From Terriglobus saanensis SP1PR4 (GTDB lineage: Bacteria > Acidobacteriota > Terriglobia > Terriglobales > Acidobacteriaceae), in the NCBI RefSeq assembly GCF_000179915.2, contig NC_014963.1:434001-498000 (forward strand): a stretch of 64,000 nt of DNA, given 5' to 3'. How positions within the stretch are numbered: the first letter of the stretch is position 1; each line of letters opens with the position of its first letter. Below the pieces are notes generated by a model, which saw nothing but the letters and a program-made list of their open reading frames with translations, made no database searches and was not told the DNA's origin. A program made the position numbers and the translations under genes. Of the stretch, positions 50,291 to 55,199 are shown piece by piece.

Positions 50291-50304
50291 GTCTAAGCTT
50301 AGAC
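50291..50304. promoter_or_regulatory. Perfect 14-bp palindrome at the start of the PKS operon
   Basis: GTCTAAGCTTAGAC lies between the GH3 stop and the ribosome site (GGAG, 50305-50308) of the type III PKS gene. It could be an operator or, as RNA, a small stem close to the start codon. The position is suggestive; function is unproven. Confidence 0.5.
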
Positions 50305-50315
50305 GGAGACTGCTT

Positions 50316-51377
50316 TTGACTTCTGCTTATATCAATCGGATTGCTACGGCCGTGCCGCCTCACAAGGTGCATGGCGCGTTTGTGGAGTTCGCTGTCCAGA
50401 TGCTTAAGGACGATCGCATGCGCACCTTGTTTCAGCGGATGTCTGCGAGGTCGGGGATCGATGATCGCTACTCCGGCCTTTCTGTCGTTCAACCCCCGCC
50501 GCAGGGCGTGGTGGACGCGTACGATTTTTATCTCGGCGACGGCTTTCCTTCCACGGCGAAGCGCATGAAGATGTTTGAGCGGTTTGCGCCTACACTGCTG
50601 CGCTCAGCGCTCGATAAGCTGGCTCTCACGGCAGAGGAGAAGGCGGGTATACGGCATGTTCTCGTGACCTGCTGCACCGGTTTGTATGCTCCTGGCCTGG
50701 ACTTTGAAGCCATCGACTATCTCGGTCTCTCTCCTTCGGTGGAGCGAACGATGATCGGCTTCATGGGCTGCTACGCGGCCATCAACGCGCTCAAGCAGGC
50801 AAGGCACATTGTGCGATCCGAGCCTGGGGATTCCGTTCTGATCATCAACCTCGAACTATGTACACTGCACTTTCAGGAGACGCAGAACCTGAACGAGGTT
50901 CTGTCATTTCTCGTCTTCGGTGACGGCTGTTCAGTCAGTTTGATCAGCGGGAAAGAGGAGGGGTTTGCTCTCGACAGCTTTCATGCGCTGCAGGTGGATG
51001 GAACACGCGATCTCATCACTTGGAACGTGCGTGACCTGGGCTTCGATATGCTGCTCTCAGGCCGCGTTCCCGGAGAGATTGGCAAGGCCCTGCGTGAACA
51101 CGGCCATATCCTCACTGGTGGCGATGCGATCGATCTGTGGGCCGTGCATCCAGGCGGGCGTTCCGTGCTCGATGCAGTAGAAGAGGGATTGGATCTCTCC
51201 TCCAGCGTGCTGGCTTCGTCCCGGAGCATTCTCAAACGATTCGGCAACATGTCTTCGGCCACGGTGATGTTTGTGCTTGAAGAGTTGATGAAATCGGCCA
51301 AGGCTGGACAGAGCGGATGCGCGATGTCCTTCGGGCCAGGACTTACCGCGGAGACGATGCGCTTCCATGTCGTCTGA
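50316..51377 (+). CDS. Type III polyketide synthase
   Basis: A 353-residue chalcone-synthase-like homodimeric enzyme that extends a CoA- or ACP-bound starter with malonyl units and cyclises it to a pyrone or resorcinol. The catalytic triad is Cys152 (FMGCYAAI), His278 (WAVHPGG) and Asn311 (FGNMSSAT). The sequence is closer to bacterial alkylpyrone/alkylresorcinol synthases than to plant enzymes. The start is TTG at 50316 with GGAG seven bases upstream. First gene of a five-gene overlapping operon with its own ACP and ketosynthase. Confidence 0.93.
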   Translation: MTSAYINRIATAVPPHKVHGAFVEFAVQMLKDDRMRTLFQRMSARSGIDDRYSGLSVVQPPPQGVVDAYDFYLGDGFPSTAKRMKMFERFAPTLLRSALDKLALTAEEKAGIRHVLVTCCTGLYAPGLDFEAIDYLGLSPSVERTMIGFMGCYAAINALKQARHIVRSEPGDSVLIINLELCTLHFQETQNLNEVLSFLVFGDGCSVSLISGKEEGFALDSFHALQVDGTRDLITWNVRDLGFDMLLSGRVPGEIGKALREHGHILTGGDAIDLWAVHPGGRSVLDAVEEGLDLSSSVLASSRSILKRFGNMSSATVMFVLEELMKSAKAGQSGCAMSFGPGLTAETMRFHVV

Positions 51378-52083
51378 CGCGATGGATTTTTCGCATCGAG
51401 CGGACCTCTCGGAGTGGATGGACGAGCCTTGTTCGTATGAAGACTTTCGCGGATGCCTTCGCGATCTCTCCCAGGTCAACTACCTCACCCTCGCCTATCG
51501 CCCTACGATGCACTGGCTTAAGCAGATCGCCCGGGTACGTCGAGGTCAAACGCTCCATATCGTCGACGTAGGATGCGGCGGGGGCGATATGCTTCGACGC
51601 ATCGAAGGCTGGGCTGTAAAAGAAGGTGTCCGGGTCAGGCTCACGGGCATCGATCTGAATCCCCATTCCGCTCGTGTTGCGCGTGAATTCACGGCAGCGA
51701 CGAGCAGGATCGAGTGGATTACCGGGGATGCCTTCTCTTATGCTCCGCAGCAGCCGATCGACTGCATCGTAAGTTCGCTCTTCACGCATCATCTTCCAGA
51801 TGCAGAGATCGTCCGTTTCCTCGCATGGATGGAACGCATGGCCGTGCGCGGCTGGTTTATCAACGATCTCAGTCGTGCGAAGGTTCCGTACTACGCCTTT
51901 AAAGTGCTTGCCACAGCAGCACACTGGCATAGGTTCGTGCGCAACGATGGGCCAATCTCAATCCGCAGGGCTTTCTCTCCGGAAGACTGGCAGCGCTATC
52001 TCTGTGCCGCAGAGATAGGCGTCAGCTCCATCTCTATCGAGTCGTGGAAACCCGCGCGTCTCTGCGTCTCGCGAGTGAAGTGA
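51367..52083 (+). CDS. SAM-dependent methyltransferase of the PKS operon
   Basis: A 238-residue class I methyltransferase with motif I IVDVGCGGGDM (about 65-75), motif II TGIDLNPHSARVA and post-motif ITGDAFSY. It overlaps the PKS gene by 11 bp. In Streptomyces srs-type clusters a methyltransferase (SrsB) acts on the phenolic lipid product of the PKS; a similar O- or C-methylation role is inferred here. Also begins MSSDAMDF, with an alternative start at the second Met. Confidence 0.9.
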   Translation: MSSDAMDFSHRADLSEWMDEPCSYEDFRGCLRDLSQVNYLTLAYRPTMHWLKQIARVRRGQTLHIVDVGCGGGDMLRRIEGWAVKEGVRVRLTGIDLNPHSARVAREFTAATSRIEWITGDAFSYAPQQPIDCIVSSLFTHHLPDAEIVRFLAWMERMAVRGWFINDLSRAKVPYYAFKVLATAAHWHRFVRNDGPISIRRAFSPEDWQRYLCAAEIGVSSISIESWKPARLCVSRVK

Positions 52084-53186
52084 TGGAGCGCGAAGCAGTC
52101 GTGATCGGAGGTGGTTTGGCCGGGGCAGCCGCAGCGACGCAGCTTGCCCGTGCAGGGCGCGACGTACTCCTGCTCGAGCGAACGCGCACAGCGCACCACA
52201 AGGTCTGCGGCGAGTTTCTCAGCCGCGAAGCGCTTCACTACCTCGCTCTTCTGGGCATGGATCCCGCAGCGCTCGGAGCCGTTCCCATCACCGGTGTAAG
52301 GCTCGCAGCGTGTGAACTTCTCGTCGAAACAGCACTTCCATTCATGGCCTTGTCGCTCACACGCCGCACGTTGGACGAAGCGATCTTGCGCAATGCGGAG
52401 GCTGCTGGCGTCGAAGTGCAGAGGAGCACAAGCGCCGCCGCTCTTTCAAGATCCAACAGCGCCTGGGACCTTAGTACAGATCAAGGCGAGTCGTTTTCGG
52501 CGCGAAATGTCTTCCTTGCGACGGGCAAGCACGATCTCCGCGGCTGGCTGCGATCGAAGGGATGGCATAACGATCTTGTGGCCCTCAAGATGTACTTCCG
52601 CCTTAGCCAGGCGCAGCATGCTGCGCTCTCTGGCTTCGTGGAACTCATTCTCTTTCCCGGAGGCTACACCGGTCTGCAGGCCGTGGAGAACGGCGAAGCG
52701 AACCTTTGTCTTCTGATCACGCGAGAACGGTTGCGTCGCCTCAACGGAAGCTGGGAGGCTGTGCTGGAACACGCATGTCTGCACTCGTCTCATCTTCGCG
52801 ACCGCCTCAGCGGCAGCCAGGCGCTTCTCGACCGCCCTCTGGCTCTCTCATCCATTCCGTATGGATATCGGGCCCCTGTGGGCAGCGATGGAGTTTGGAG
52901 ACTCGGCGACCAGACGGCGGTGATTCCATCGTTCTCCGGCGACGGTATGTCCATCGCTCTCCACAGCGCGCATCTCGCGACGAAACTCTTTCTCACAGGT
53001 AATACGTCCAACGTCTATCAGCAGCAGATGCGCCGCCAGCTTGGCCGGGGTATCTGCGTCGCCAGCGCGCTTTCGCAACTACTCGTACGTGCCCCGCTTC
53101 TGGCGCAGCTCGTTCGCGTTCGACCGCGACTTTTGCGTGACATTGCAATCCTTACGCGCATTCCCGAATCCGCGATTATTCGATAA
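52083..53186 (+). CDS. FAD-dependent oxidoreductase of the PKS operon
   Basis: A 367-residue flavoprotein of the PHBH/geranylgeranyl-reductase-like group. The dinucleotide motif GGGLAGAAAATQLARAG is at the N-terminus, with CGEFLSREALHYL and the second FAD motif WRLGDQTAVIPSFSGDGMSIAL. In srs-type clusters a flavoprotein hydroxylase (SrsC) oxidises the phenolic lipid; here oxidation or reduction is possible. ATG at 52083 overlaps the methyltransferase stop (TGATG); the longer frame from 52044 is less likely. Confidence 0.9.
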   Translation: MEREAVVIGGGLAGAAAATQLARAGRDVLLLERTRTAHHKVCGEFLSREALHYLALLGMDPAALGAVPITGVRLAACELLVETALPFMALSLTRRTLDEAILRNAEAAGVEVQRSTSAAALSRSNSAWDLSTDQGESFSARNVFLATGKHDLRGWLRSKGWHNDLVALKMYFRLSQAQHAALSGFVELILFPGGYTGLQAVENGEANLCLLITRERLRRLNGSWEAVLEHACLHSSHLRDRLSGSQALLDRPLALSSIPYGYRAPVGSDGVWRLGDQTAVIPSFSGDGMSIALHSAHLATKLFLTGNTSNVYQQQMRRQLGRGICVASALSQLLVRAPLLAQLVRVRPRLLRDIAILTRIPESAIIR

Positions 53187-53248
53187 GCGCATGTAGTATG
53201 GGCTCCGATAGAGTACAGAGCATGAGTCGTACCGCGGTAGGAGAAGAG

Positions 53249-53527
53249 ATGGATCAGATCGCTGAAGAATGTATTGCACTCATCGCAGCGGCCAAGCAGC
53301 TTCCTGCGGAGCAGGTGACGCTCGACAGCACCTTTGAAGATCTCGCTGTCGACTCGCTCGACCGGGTCAGCCTCTCCTTCGACGTGGAAGAGAAGTATGG
53401 CATTGAGATTCCGGACAGCAGGTTGCACACCATCCTCACCGTTCGCGACATGGTGGAAGGTGTGGAAGAGGCCCTGCGTGCCAAGGTCGAAAAAGCCCGT
53501 TTGAAAGAAGCCGGAGAAGGCGCGTGA
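53249..53527 (+). CDS. Acyl carrier protein of the PKS operon
   Basis: A 92-residue ACP with the phosphopantetheine site DSLDRVSL (Ser36), preceded by the acidic LDSTFEDLAV helix and followed by VEEKYGIEIPDS. It probably carries an acyl chain for the ketosynthase and PKS. ATG at 53249 has GGAG five bases upstream; 53222 and 53198 are possible earlier starts. The C-terminal tail is charged. Its stop overlaps the start of the ketosynthase (GTGA). Confidence 0.9.
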   Translation: MDQIAEECIALIAAAKQLPAEQVTLDSTFEDLAVDSLDRVSLSFDVEEKYGIEIPDSRLHTILTVRDMVEGVEEALRAKVEKARLKEAGEGA

Positions 53528-54732
53528 ACCGTGTTGTCGTCACCGGACTCGGATGCGTCACGGCCATCGGCCAGGATGTCGCCACCTTCCGCGAAAATCT
53601 TTTTGCAGGAAGAGATGGTTTCCGTGAGATCCCCGACGTTGCTGCCGGAGATCTCCGCTTCCAACGCGCGGCGCTGATCGAAGGCTTCGATGCCGCGTCG
53701 CTCCTCACTTCGGCACAGATCCTTCTCTCCGAACGCTCTTCGCAGTTCGCTCTTGTGGCTGCGCAACAGGCCATTGCGCAGGCTGAGATTCTGCAGGCAG
53801 TTGCTCCCGAGGAGATGGCCATCGTCTTCGGTTGCTCGGCGGGTGGACGAACCGCTGAAGAGCCGGCGACGGCGAAGCTCTACACCACTGGCGGACGCGT
53901 TCATCCCCTCAGCGTGCCGCGCTTCATGGGCAGCGCGGGGACCAGCCTGGTTTCCATACAGCACGGCATCACCGGCCCTGCGTACACCATCACCACGGCA
54001 TGCGCGTCTGCTACGCATGCGATCGGGCAGGCGTTTCACATGGTGCGCTCCGGCATGGTGAAAGCCGCTATGACTGGAGGACACGAAGCTCCACTGACGT
54101 ATGGGTTTTACAAGGCCTGGGACAGTCTTCGCGTTGTTTCGCAGACGCAGTGCAGGCCTTTTTCTGCGGACCGCGATGGCATGACGCTGGGGGAGGGTGC
54201 GGCGATCTTCGTCCTGGAGACGCTGGAGAGCGCTGTCGCTCGTGGCGCAACCATATACGGAGAGATCGTCGGCTTCGGCATGTCTTCCGACGCGAGCCAC
54301 ATCACGCAGGCGCAGCCCGCGGGACCGACGGCCGCGATGCGCCGCGCACTTCTGGATGCAGGCGCTGCTCCGGAAGACGTCGGATACATCAACGCGCATG
54401 GCACAGGGACCACGGTGAATGACAACGTGGAAGCCGAAGCGATCCGCACCGTCTTCGCGGAGAACGCCGCCAATCTTCCTCTCAGTTCCACCAAAGCGAT
54501 GCACGGTCACGCCATGGGCGCGTCAGGAGCCATTGAAGCCCTCGCCACGCTGCTGGCGCTGCGCGAAGGCATGCTGCCTGTCACGGCAGGCGTGGCAGAG
54601 GCTGACGTCGCCCTGGGGCTCGATGTGATCGTAGGCGAAGCGCGAAAGGCCAGCCCGAAGCTGGCTCTGTCGAACTCGTTTGCTTTTGGGGGCTTGAATG
54701 CCGTTCTGGCGTTCAAGCCCTATGAGGATTAA
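53524..54732 (+). CDS. Beta-ketoacyl-ACP synthase (KAS II/FabF-like)
   Basis: A 402-residue thiolase-fold condensing enzyme with the complete triad Cys160 (TTACASA), His292 (NAHGTGT) and His329 (MHGHAMGASG), and a C-terminal NSFAFGGLNAVL. It extends acyl-ACP with malonyl-ACP and, in this operon, probably lengthens or supplies the starter chain for the type III PKS. GTG at 53524 overlaps the ACP stop. Its end overlaps the convergent 54729 gene by 4 bp. Confidence 0.93.
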   Translation: MNRVVVTGLGCVTAIGQDVATFRENLFAGRDGFREIPDVAAGDLRFQRAALIEGFDAASLLTSAQILLSERSSQFALVAAQQAIAQAEILQAVAPEEMAIVFGCSAGGRTAEEPATAKLYTTGGRVHPLSVPRFMGSAGTSLVSIQHGITGPAYTITTACASATHAIGQAFHMVRSGMVKAAMTGGHEAPLTYGFYKAWDSLRVVSQTQCRPFSADRDGMTLGEGAAIFVLETLESAVARGATIYGEIVGFGMSSDASHITQAQPAGPTAAMRRALLDAGAAPEDVGYINAHGTGTTVNDNVEAEAIRTVFAENAANLPLSSTKAMHGHAMGASGAIEALATLLALREGMLPVTAGVAEADVALGLDVIVGEARKASPKLALSNSFAFGGLNAVLAFKPYED

Positions 54733-55199
54733 GCGACCTGGATGGATTCCAGCGTAGCGAAGACTGTCTTGTCGTGCCGTCCTGGATCGATCGTCAACTC
54801 CAAAGCGACGACCTCGTTGAGATCCACGGTATAGTCCTCCACTTCGATCGTCGATCCGCCCGGGCTGAAGCCCCACTGCTGGCGCACAATCTCTTTACGG
54901 ACTTCGGGACGTAGAATAGCCACAAGGGCGAACTCCTGAGAACGTTCCTTCGCCTCTTCTTTGAAGGCCAGCCGCACGCGCTTCACCGTCTTCGGCGTGT
55001 CAAACGTAAACCGAATTACCTGTACGCCGGGCGTAGAGGCCCTCCAGCCTCCGGCGGTTCCGGAAGTAATGGCGCGTTCCAGCGGATGCGCTTCATCCTC
55101 GGAGGTCATCGTAGCGCTGGCCAGGGCATCCAGATCCATCCACGCGGCGGAAGGAGATTCTGGGGTATTGTTCTTCGGAGATACAACAGACTTGCGCAT
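54729..55199 (-). CDS. Hypothetical protein with carbohydrate-binding-like beta fold
   Basis: A 156-residue protein without a signal peptide. The centre and end are beta-rich (VQVIRFTFDTPKTVKRVRLAFKE, STIEVEDYTVDLNEVVALELTID), a pattern like a discoidin or F5/8-type C domain. I recognise no defined family with confidence. It converges on the ketosynthase gene with a 4-bp overlap. The gap to 55376 holds nothing recognisable beyond the glgX leader. Confidence 0.7.
   Translation of the reverse strand: MRKSVVSPKNNTPESPSAAWMDLDALASATMTSEDEAHPLERAITSGTAGGWRASTPGVQVIRFTFDTPKTVKRVRLAFKEEAKERSQEFALVAILRPEVRKEIVRQQWGFSPGGSTIEVEDYTVDLNEVVALELTIDPGRHDKTVFATLESIQVA

Follow-up and report, generated by a model that had tools for sequence, protein, structure and literature searches.

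An acyl carrier protein and ketoacyl synthase pair as a candidate private starter supply in a type III polyketide synthase operon of Terriglobus saanensis

Where a type III polyketide synthase (T3PKS) obtains its starter in the cell is an open question, and a locus of the acidobacterium Terriglobus saanensis SP1PR4 raises it directly. The window, i.e., the whole stretch of DNA analysed here, comprises 64,000 nucleotides of this genome (contig NC_014963.1, positions 434,001 to 498,000 of the forward strand) and harbors a row of five genes encoding a T3PKS, a methyltransferase (MT), an FAD (flavin adenine dinucleotide) enzyme, a discrete acyl carrier protein (ACP) and a FabF-like β-ketoacyl-ACP synthase (KAS). 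Use of acyl-ACP has been shown for a few T3PKSs, and how common it is remains unclear (PMC8086630). The gene set, its intactness and a repeated association of ACP-KAS pairs with T3PKS genes are direct observations. It is somewhat probable that the ACP-KAS pair makes a dedicated ACP-bound starter, which would be handed to the T3PKS for an alkylresorcinol-type lipid that would then be methylated and oxidised.

Three of the five genes form a widespread, already known kind of operon. A T3PKS match is present in at least 212 of the 298 genomes of the order (two subfamilies together), and 96 loci with close T3PKS homologs were fetched besides the window from the matches listed; some of these are cut by contig ends (e.g., L044, L092, L110, L111, L120 and L136 in our numbering), where genes may be hidden, and one place with a partial T3PKS (G138:C251, 154 aa) was left out. 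The MT was matched in 92 and the FAD enzyme in 86 of these 96 loci, and in named genomes 61 of the 80 best family loci match both tailoring genes, weak matches included. On annotated alphaproteobacterial plasmids, genes for T3PKS, MT and a protein that binds FAD or NAD follow one another, 58 of 96 Planctomycetota T3PKS genes have the T3PKS-MT-FAD core (PMC10896814), and so does cyanobacterial hidABC, for hierridin (PMC8086630). Like the window operon, the hidABC and Planctomycetota operons combine a T3PKS with a methyltransferase and an oxidoreductase; one reported hid order, hidC-hidA-hidB, is that of the window (PMC8086630), whereas the Planctomycetota order is MT-FAD-T3PKS. Their products are alkylresorcinols that are further methylated and, for hierridin, also hydroxylated: Planctomycetota T3PKSs gave pentadecyl- and heptadecylresorcinols when expressed in C. 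glutamicum, and the MT/FAD pair of G. maris led to a single methylation (PMC10896814). By gene set, the window operon is a member of this operon kind, and its synthase, by triad and domains, is a type III PKS. The first-pass annotation had named Streptomyces srsABC as a relative; its gene set of PKS, methyltransferase and flavoprotein is indeed alike, but SrsB presumably has a methyltransferase fold other than that of the window MT, we know of no ACP or KAS in srsABC, and hidABC, compared by gene set rather than by sequence, looks the closer comparison. As side observations, a relative of cyclopropane-fatty-acid synthase follows T3PKS-MT-FAD in Mesorhizobium sp. INR15 (L032:8001-12273), and some other alphaproteobacterial operons of this kind have genes for siderophore uptake or for an MFS exporter as neighbors (L145:1789-9880, L031:6364-11120).

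What had been put forward as a candidate for an undescribed lipid pathway is thus known in kind at its core, and the ACP-KAS pair is the unusual part of the operon: neither ACP nor KAS is mentioned in the available descriptions of the hid and Planctomycetota operons, and no description of a T3PKS accompanied by a private ACP and KAS was found in the open literature searched, outside which most subscription papers lie. Within the genus of the window, ACP and KAS genes stand beside the T3PKS in 8 of the 13 other loci fetched, seven of which hold all five genes, so that the suggested search for the same gene order in other Acidobacteriota succeeded inside the genus; among the acidobacterial loci fetched, the full order occurs only there. 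Locus distances were measured between tblastn matches (for reversed loci they may be off by up to one gene length), and two loci were kept out of the linked count: L230, whose ACP and KAS genes lie 4.5-5.8 kb off on the opposite strand, and L202, where an ACP match on the opposite strand is weak. A KAS more than 60% identical is present in 12 of 19 same-genus genomes, the window's included, and lies beside the T3PKS in 11 of them; the remaining genome, G300, has a contig end within the MT gene. Two same-genus loci are recorded here for themselves: L106 (361-3703), the eighth of the loci with ACP and KAS, reads T3PKS-MT-ACP-KAS, with the FAD gene absent and 110 bp between the MT and ACP matches, and L321 (7398-11268) has another ACP-KAS pair whose neighbors encode an epimerase and an enzyme with the aminotransferase fold, which may make it a locus of the sphingolipid type.

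A search of 396 genomes of the phylum identified KASs 55-63% identical to that of the window in another genus, g4, and in 18 of the 20 g4 loci fetched a second T3PKS is encoded on the same strand within 9 kb of the KAS. Since this T3PKS, whose best match in the Protein Data Bank (PDB) is mycobacterial Pks11, is only 29% identical to the window T3PKS, one ACP-KAS lineage appears with two T3PKS partners. Three of the loci have the order T3PKS-FAD-ACP-KAS (L286, L287 and L288) and seven the order T3PKS-ACP-KAS with no MT or FAD match (L291, L296, L298 and L300-L303), where the MT query detects the window MT family only and would let other kinds of MT near the g4 T3PKS escape. In the remaining eight, the KAS lies about 5.6-8.7 kb from the T3PKS, and the ACP gene comes shortly after that of the T3PKS or of its FAD enzyme, as gene coordinates confirmed in L284, L290 and L295. 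As a control, 20 loci with the second T3PKS in other genera, hand-picked from the T3PKS matches listed and therefore not random, gave no ACP or KAS match within 9-16 kb; the FAD gene was present in 15 of them and a YceI-like gene in 10.

A third arrangement, ACP-KAS-T3PKS, is present on all five sphingomonad plasmids that were identified with such a KAS (four from Novosphingobium and one from Sphingobium). Four read ACP-KAS-T3PKS-FAD with the MT divergent upstream and one ACP-KAS-T3PKS-MT-FAD; the ACP of L155 was missed by tblastn and read by eye in the sequence. Searching with the sphingomonad KAS (E 1e-60) returned six plasmid records, namely these five, in all of which the T3PKS lies directly behind, and one from Xanthomonas. 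In a tree of 49 KASs the Terriglobus and g4 rows group together (support 100/100; g4 alone 100/99, Terriglobus 90/66), the sphingomonad KASs stand apart (100/100), and two NodE rows (L151 and L153) fall outside the T3PKS-linked clade; a quick tree of 74 KASs agrees. Separate gains are favored because the five sphingomonad T3PKSs, in a FastTree tree of the window-type T3PKSs, group with other alphaproteobacterial ones, far from that of the window. Forcing all T3PKS-linked KASs into a single origin lowers the log-likelihood by 9.6 (p-AU 0.082; long branches are involved), which disfavors such an origin but does not reject it. In the T3PKS tree the ACP-KAS loci of the genus do not form one clade (3 changes), and L126, a same-genus locus lacking the pair, lies among them. 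These comparisons show one ACP-KAS lineage in company with two T3PKS subfamilies and, probably, the recruitment of a further pair in the sphingomonads. This repeated joining is the main argument that ACP and KAS work with the T3PKS, and the pairing of ACP and KAS with another T3PKS in related bacteria suggests a private supply line for the lipid tail.

How such a line might work can be outlined. The KAS would lengthen a fatty acyl chain carried by the ACP of the operon, probably borrowing malonyl transferase and reductases from housekeeping metabolism, to give an ACP-bound starter of a particular length or type; the T3PKS would take the acyl group from the ACP, as other T3PKSs (ArsB/ArsC, GCS and CylI) can (PMC6274091, PMC8086630), and would then add malonyl units. 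Ring closure would proceed by aldol condensation, to judge from the family and from Trp236, after which the MT would methylate and the FAD enzyme hydroxylate the ring, as the gene set and known operons suggest. The T3PKS triad C152/H278/N311, as first annotated, is invariant in all 101 aligned rows. Trp236 is likewise present in 101 of 101 rows, and in 18 of 19 of the second subfamily; it aligns with a Trp of Pks11 and with L266 of pks18, through which the position was assigned, ArsB itself being outside the alignment. In ArsB, a Trp at this position is reported to be indispensable if resorcinols are to form (PMC5916927). Where the first-pass annotation left the product class as pyrone, resorcinol or quinone, Trp236 thus makes a resorcinol likelier than a pyrone, although this Trp is not exclusive to resorcinol formers. 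C182, at the position of pks18 C205, a listed tunnel residue (PMC6274091), is conserved in 100 of 101 rows.

The KAS is a complete FabF-like enzyme, as first described: its Cys-His-His triad comprises C160, H292 and H329, the last read from the sequence as the catalytic His that ends the motif K-x-x-[TH]-G-H. All 37 KASs of the T3PKS-linked groups, two g4 rows with no T3PKS nearby included, have a small residue at the position of FabF I108, a gating residue of the acyl pocket (PMC7138838): A or T in the 12 from Terriglobus, C or T in the 20 from g4 and S in the five from sphingomonads. All 13 housekeeping ketosynthases have Ile there, and all five KASs of the L321 group have L or F. The small gate residue may admit other chains. 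For the tailoring enzymes, structure models are confident (mean pLDDT 95.7 for the MT and 91.9 for the FAD enzyme). In a Foldseek comparison with the PDB, the FAD enzyme matches flavin halogenases first (FasV, CndH, PltA and Bmp2; 17-19% identity) and aromatic hydroxylases after them, at 16-19% identity within the first ten rows. Flavin halogenases carry the motif WxWxIP; since no match to its DNA pattern occurs in the window, hydroxylation appears likelier than halogenation for the modelled enzyme. Among the 50 matches listed for the MT, an O-methyltransferase comes first by E-value and the C-methyltransferase CouO has one of the highest TM-scores, so that the model would accommodate either specificity.

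Other known systems resemble parts of this scheme. In Azotobacter ars, as proposed here, a long-chain T3PKS is fed by an ACP-bound starter (PMC6274091), but from a fatty acid synthase (FAS) with an ACP domain (ArsA) instead of a discrete ACP and KAS. Membership of the ars type was rejected: the genome has three matches to the ketosynthase family PF00109, three to the carrier family PF00550 and one intact T3PKS, and all three PF00109 matches lie in frames of 422-441 aa, none of them a type I FAS-like ketosynthase. The earlier suggestion that the starter supply is a discrete ACP plus KAS rather than a type I FAS is consistent with this, and comparative genomics strengthens the link. In the cylindrocyclophane pathway (CylB/CylI) a free-standing ACP likewise stands on the way to an alkylresorcinol-making T3PKS (PMC8086630), whereas elongation is by type I PKSs, with the halogenase CylC, and not by a discrete KAS. 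Rhizobial NodF/NodE, identified by coordinates in R. tropici, offer a parallel to the window pair, in that an ACP and a FabF-like KAS reserved for a particular acyl chain are encoded side by side; NodE is 42-44% identical to the window KAS (two compared), and the NodFE acceptor is not a T3PKS. A NodFE assignment was rejected, as NodE lies outside the T3PKS-linked clade and the neighbors of the operon are genes for a GH3 glycosidase and GlgX, not nod genes. By analogy, the operon may work like NodF/NodE joined to a hid-type operon.

The same evidence can be read in other ways. The KAS might condense only once on the ACP and pass the unreduced 3-oxoacyl-ACP straight to the T3PKS, which would add only the last malonyl units, in a type II/type III hybrid line. 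KAS alone yields 3-oxoacyl-ACP, the recurring set is ACP and KAS, and ketoreductase, dehydratase and enoyl reductase are absent from the window operon; T3PKS, ACP and KAS stand side by side in the seven g4 loci named above, and GCS accepts both acetoacetyl-CoA and hexanoyl-ACP (PMC6274091). The lack of reductases does not, however, imply an unreduced handover, because the NodF/NodE pair also works without private reductases in the stretch examined and is nevertheless said to be required for α,β-unsaturated chains (PMC3557214), and we regard this route as rather unlikely. Its broader form is doubtful to a similar degree: separate T3PKS branches would have taken up a portable type II module of ACP and KAS on at least two and probably three occasions, with direct handover of unreduced 3-oxoacyl-ACP. 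If true, the first carbon-carbon bond in such type II/type III hybrid lines would be the work of the KAS, and the T3PKS-ACP-KAS loci lacking tailoring genes would be the minimal form. It seems quite unlikely that ACP and KAS belong to a different lipid pathway and are placed in the operon for co-expression only: the phylum does contain ACP-KAS pairs with no T3PKS match, such as that of L321, and in two g4 loci (L297 and L299) the T3PKS lies elsewhere in the genome, but the T3PKS-linked KASs of Terriglobus and g4 form a clade of their own that recurs with two T3PKS subfamilies, and a further ACP-KAS-T3PKS arrangement exists in another phylum. Very unlikely, in our view, is a route in which ACP and KAS alter the fatty acid pool and the T3PKS uses acyl-CoA made from that pool, with no direct handover from the ACP; related T3PKSs are thought to draw on acyl-CoA pools in a foreign host (PMC10896814), but the five genes include no acyl-CoA ligase or thioesterase, and in the split g4 loci it is the ACP, not the KAS, that stays near the T3PKS.

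A dedicated starter made by ACP and KAS, the reading preferred here, has to be weighed against several observations besides the two g4 loci and the lack of any reductase or dehydratase within the five-gene operon. Most T3PKSs of the family do without the pair, which is lacking from 5 of the 13 same-genus loci, occurs in none of 83 loci fetched outside the genus (some cut by contig ends), and among the 80 best family loci is adjacent in only 1. G300, the nearest relative, yielded no T3PKS at all from a genome that is 70% complete. Planctomycetota T3PKSs were active in C. glutamicum with no partner ACP or KAS (PMC10896814). At the residue level, Pks11, deposited as an α-pyrone synthase, also carries the Trp, two tunnel positions of PKS18 are bulkier in the window (N208 to H185 and A209 to F186), and A, T or S at the KAS gate is also found in 5 of 14 other acidobacterial KASs.

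The genes were as first annotated, intact and on the + strand (Table 1), except that the start had been set at 50291, 25 bp ahead of the TTG codon of the T3PKS, which is preceded by GGAG. T3PKS and MT genes overlap by 11 bp, MT and FAD genes by 1 bp, and ACP and KAS genes by 4 bp; the short gap between FAD and ACP is 62 bp. A longer FAD frame is possible from GTG 52044, and an in-frame ATG at 53198 is an alternative start for the ACP, whose start at 53249 places the serine at 36. Pfam assigns Chal_sti_synt N and C domains (PF00195, PF02797) to the T3PKS, Methyltransf_25 to the MT and DAO/FAD_binding_3 to the FAD enzyme (both broad families), PP-binding to the ACP and ketoacyl-synt N and C to the KAS; none of the five proteins reaches a curated NCBIfam cut-off among the matches listed (for the FAD enzyme, the best 25 of 50).

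Table 1. Genes of the T3PKS operon, in window positions
Gene product	Position	Strand	Features
Type III PKS (T3PKS)	50316-51377	+	353 aa; C152/H278/N311; second Cys C120; Trp236
Class I SAM (S-adenosylmethionine)-dependent methyltransferase (MT)	51367-52083	+	238 aa; O- or C-specific
FAD enzyme	52083-53186	+	367 aa from ATG 52083; fold of flavin monooxygenases/flavin halogenases
Discrete acyl carrier protein (ACP)	53249-53527	+	92 aa; Ser36 in DSLD
FabF-like β-ketoacyl-ACP synthase (KAS)	53524-54732	+	402 aa; C160/H292/K324/H329; A106 at FabF I108

The host genome is a single contig of 5.1 Mb. Upstream on the same strand, the GH3 gene (window 47609 onward) ends 31 bp before the T3PKS, and transcription of the operon may start inside or run through it; its protein had no match in 12 same-genus loci tested (L106 with almost no upstream sequence), and the operon proper is therefore the five genes. 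A downstream open reading frame (54729-55199), which has no Pfam match, runs toward the operon and shares 4 bp with the end of the KAS gene, and a scan of promoters and terminators gave nothing above chance. Compared with G300, whose contig end cuts off the T3PKS and limits the comparison to four genes, dN/dS is 0.07 for KAS, 0.11 for ACP, 0.15 for FAD and 0.16 for MT (76 codons); these four genes are under purifying selection, KAS most strongly. Low dN/dS and the recurrence of MT and FAD in homologous loci argue that the gene set is not due to chance.

The genome of T. saanensis also holds a second operon of another subtype (L139:5955-6900; C1, about 3.574 Mb), with MT, DUF2306, FAD and YceI genes. 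Of its T3PKS only 56 N-terminal and 19-20 C-terminal residues are left, joined in a single frame of 81 codons that still ends at the MT start, so that the genome has two tailoring sets and one intact T3PKS. Around MT and FAD, a large T3PKS subclade (L139:6918-10300) has genes for a membrane protein with DUF2306, for a lipid-binding YceI protein and, in divergent orientation, for a protein with no Pfam match; the clusters occur in 36, 29 and 26 of the 101 loci. Genes for a response regulator and a histidine-kinase-like protein, both named by eye, often lie upstream. DUF2147 proteins are encoded in T3PKS operons of Terriglobus-like genomes (cluster in 13 of 101 loci) and of Novosphingobium (L101:12419-12874, L323:7247-7699 and L146:5129-5563); neither the acidobacterial query nor that from Novosphingobium matches the window, and the only PF09917 match of the genome is at 3.188 Mb.

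The chemistry of the operon is predictable in outline, and it is the private type II starter supply that is unusual and directly testable. Operons with their own ACP and KAS, three-gene forms and relatives lacking the pair constitute matched natural pairs, which allow direct tests of ACP handover, of chain-length control and of how type II and type III systems are joined.

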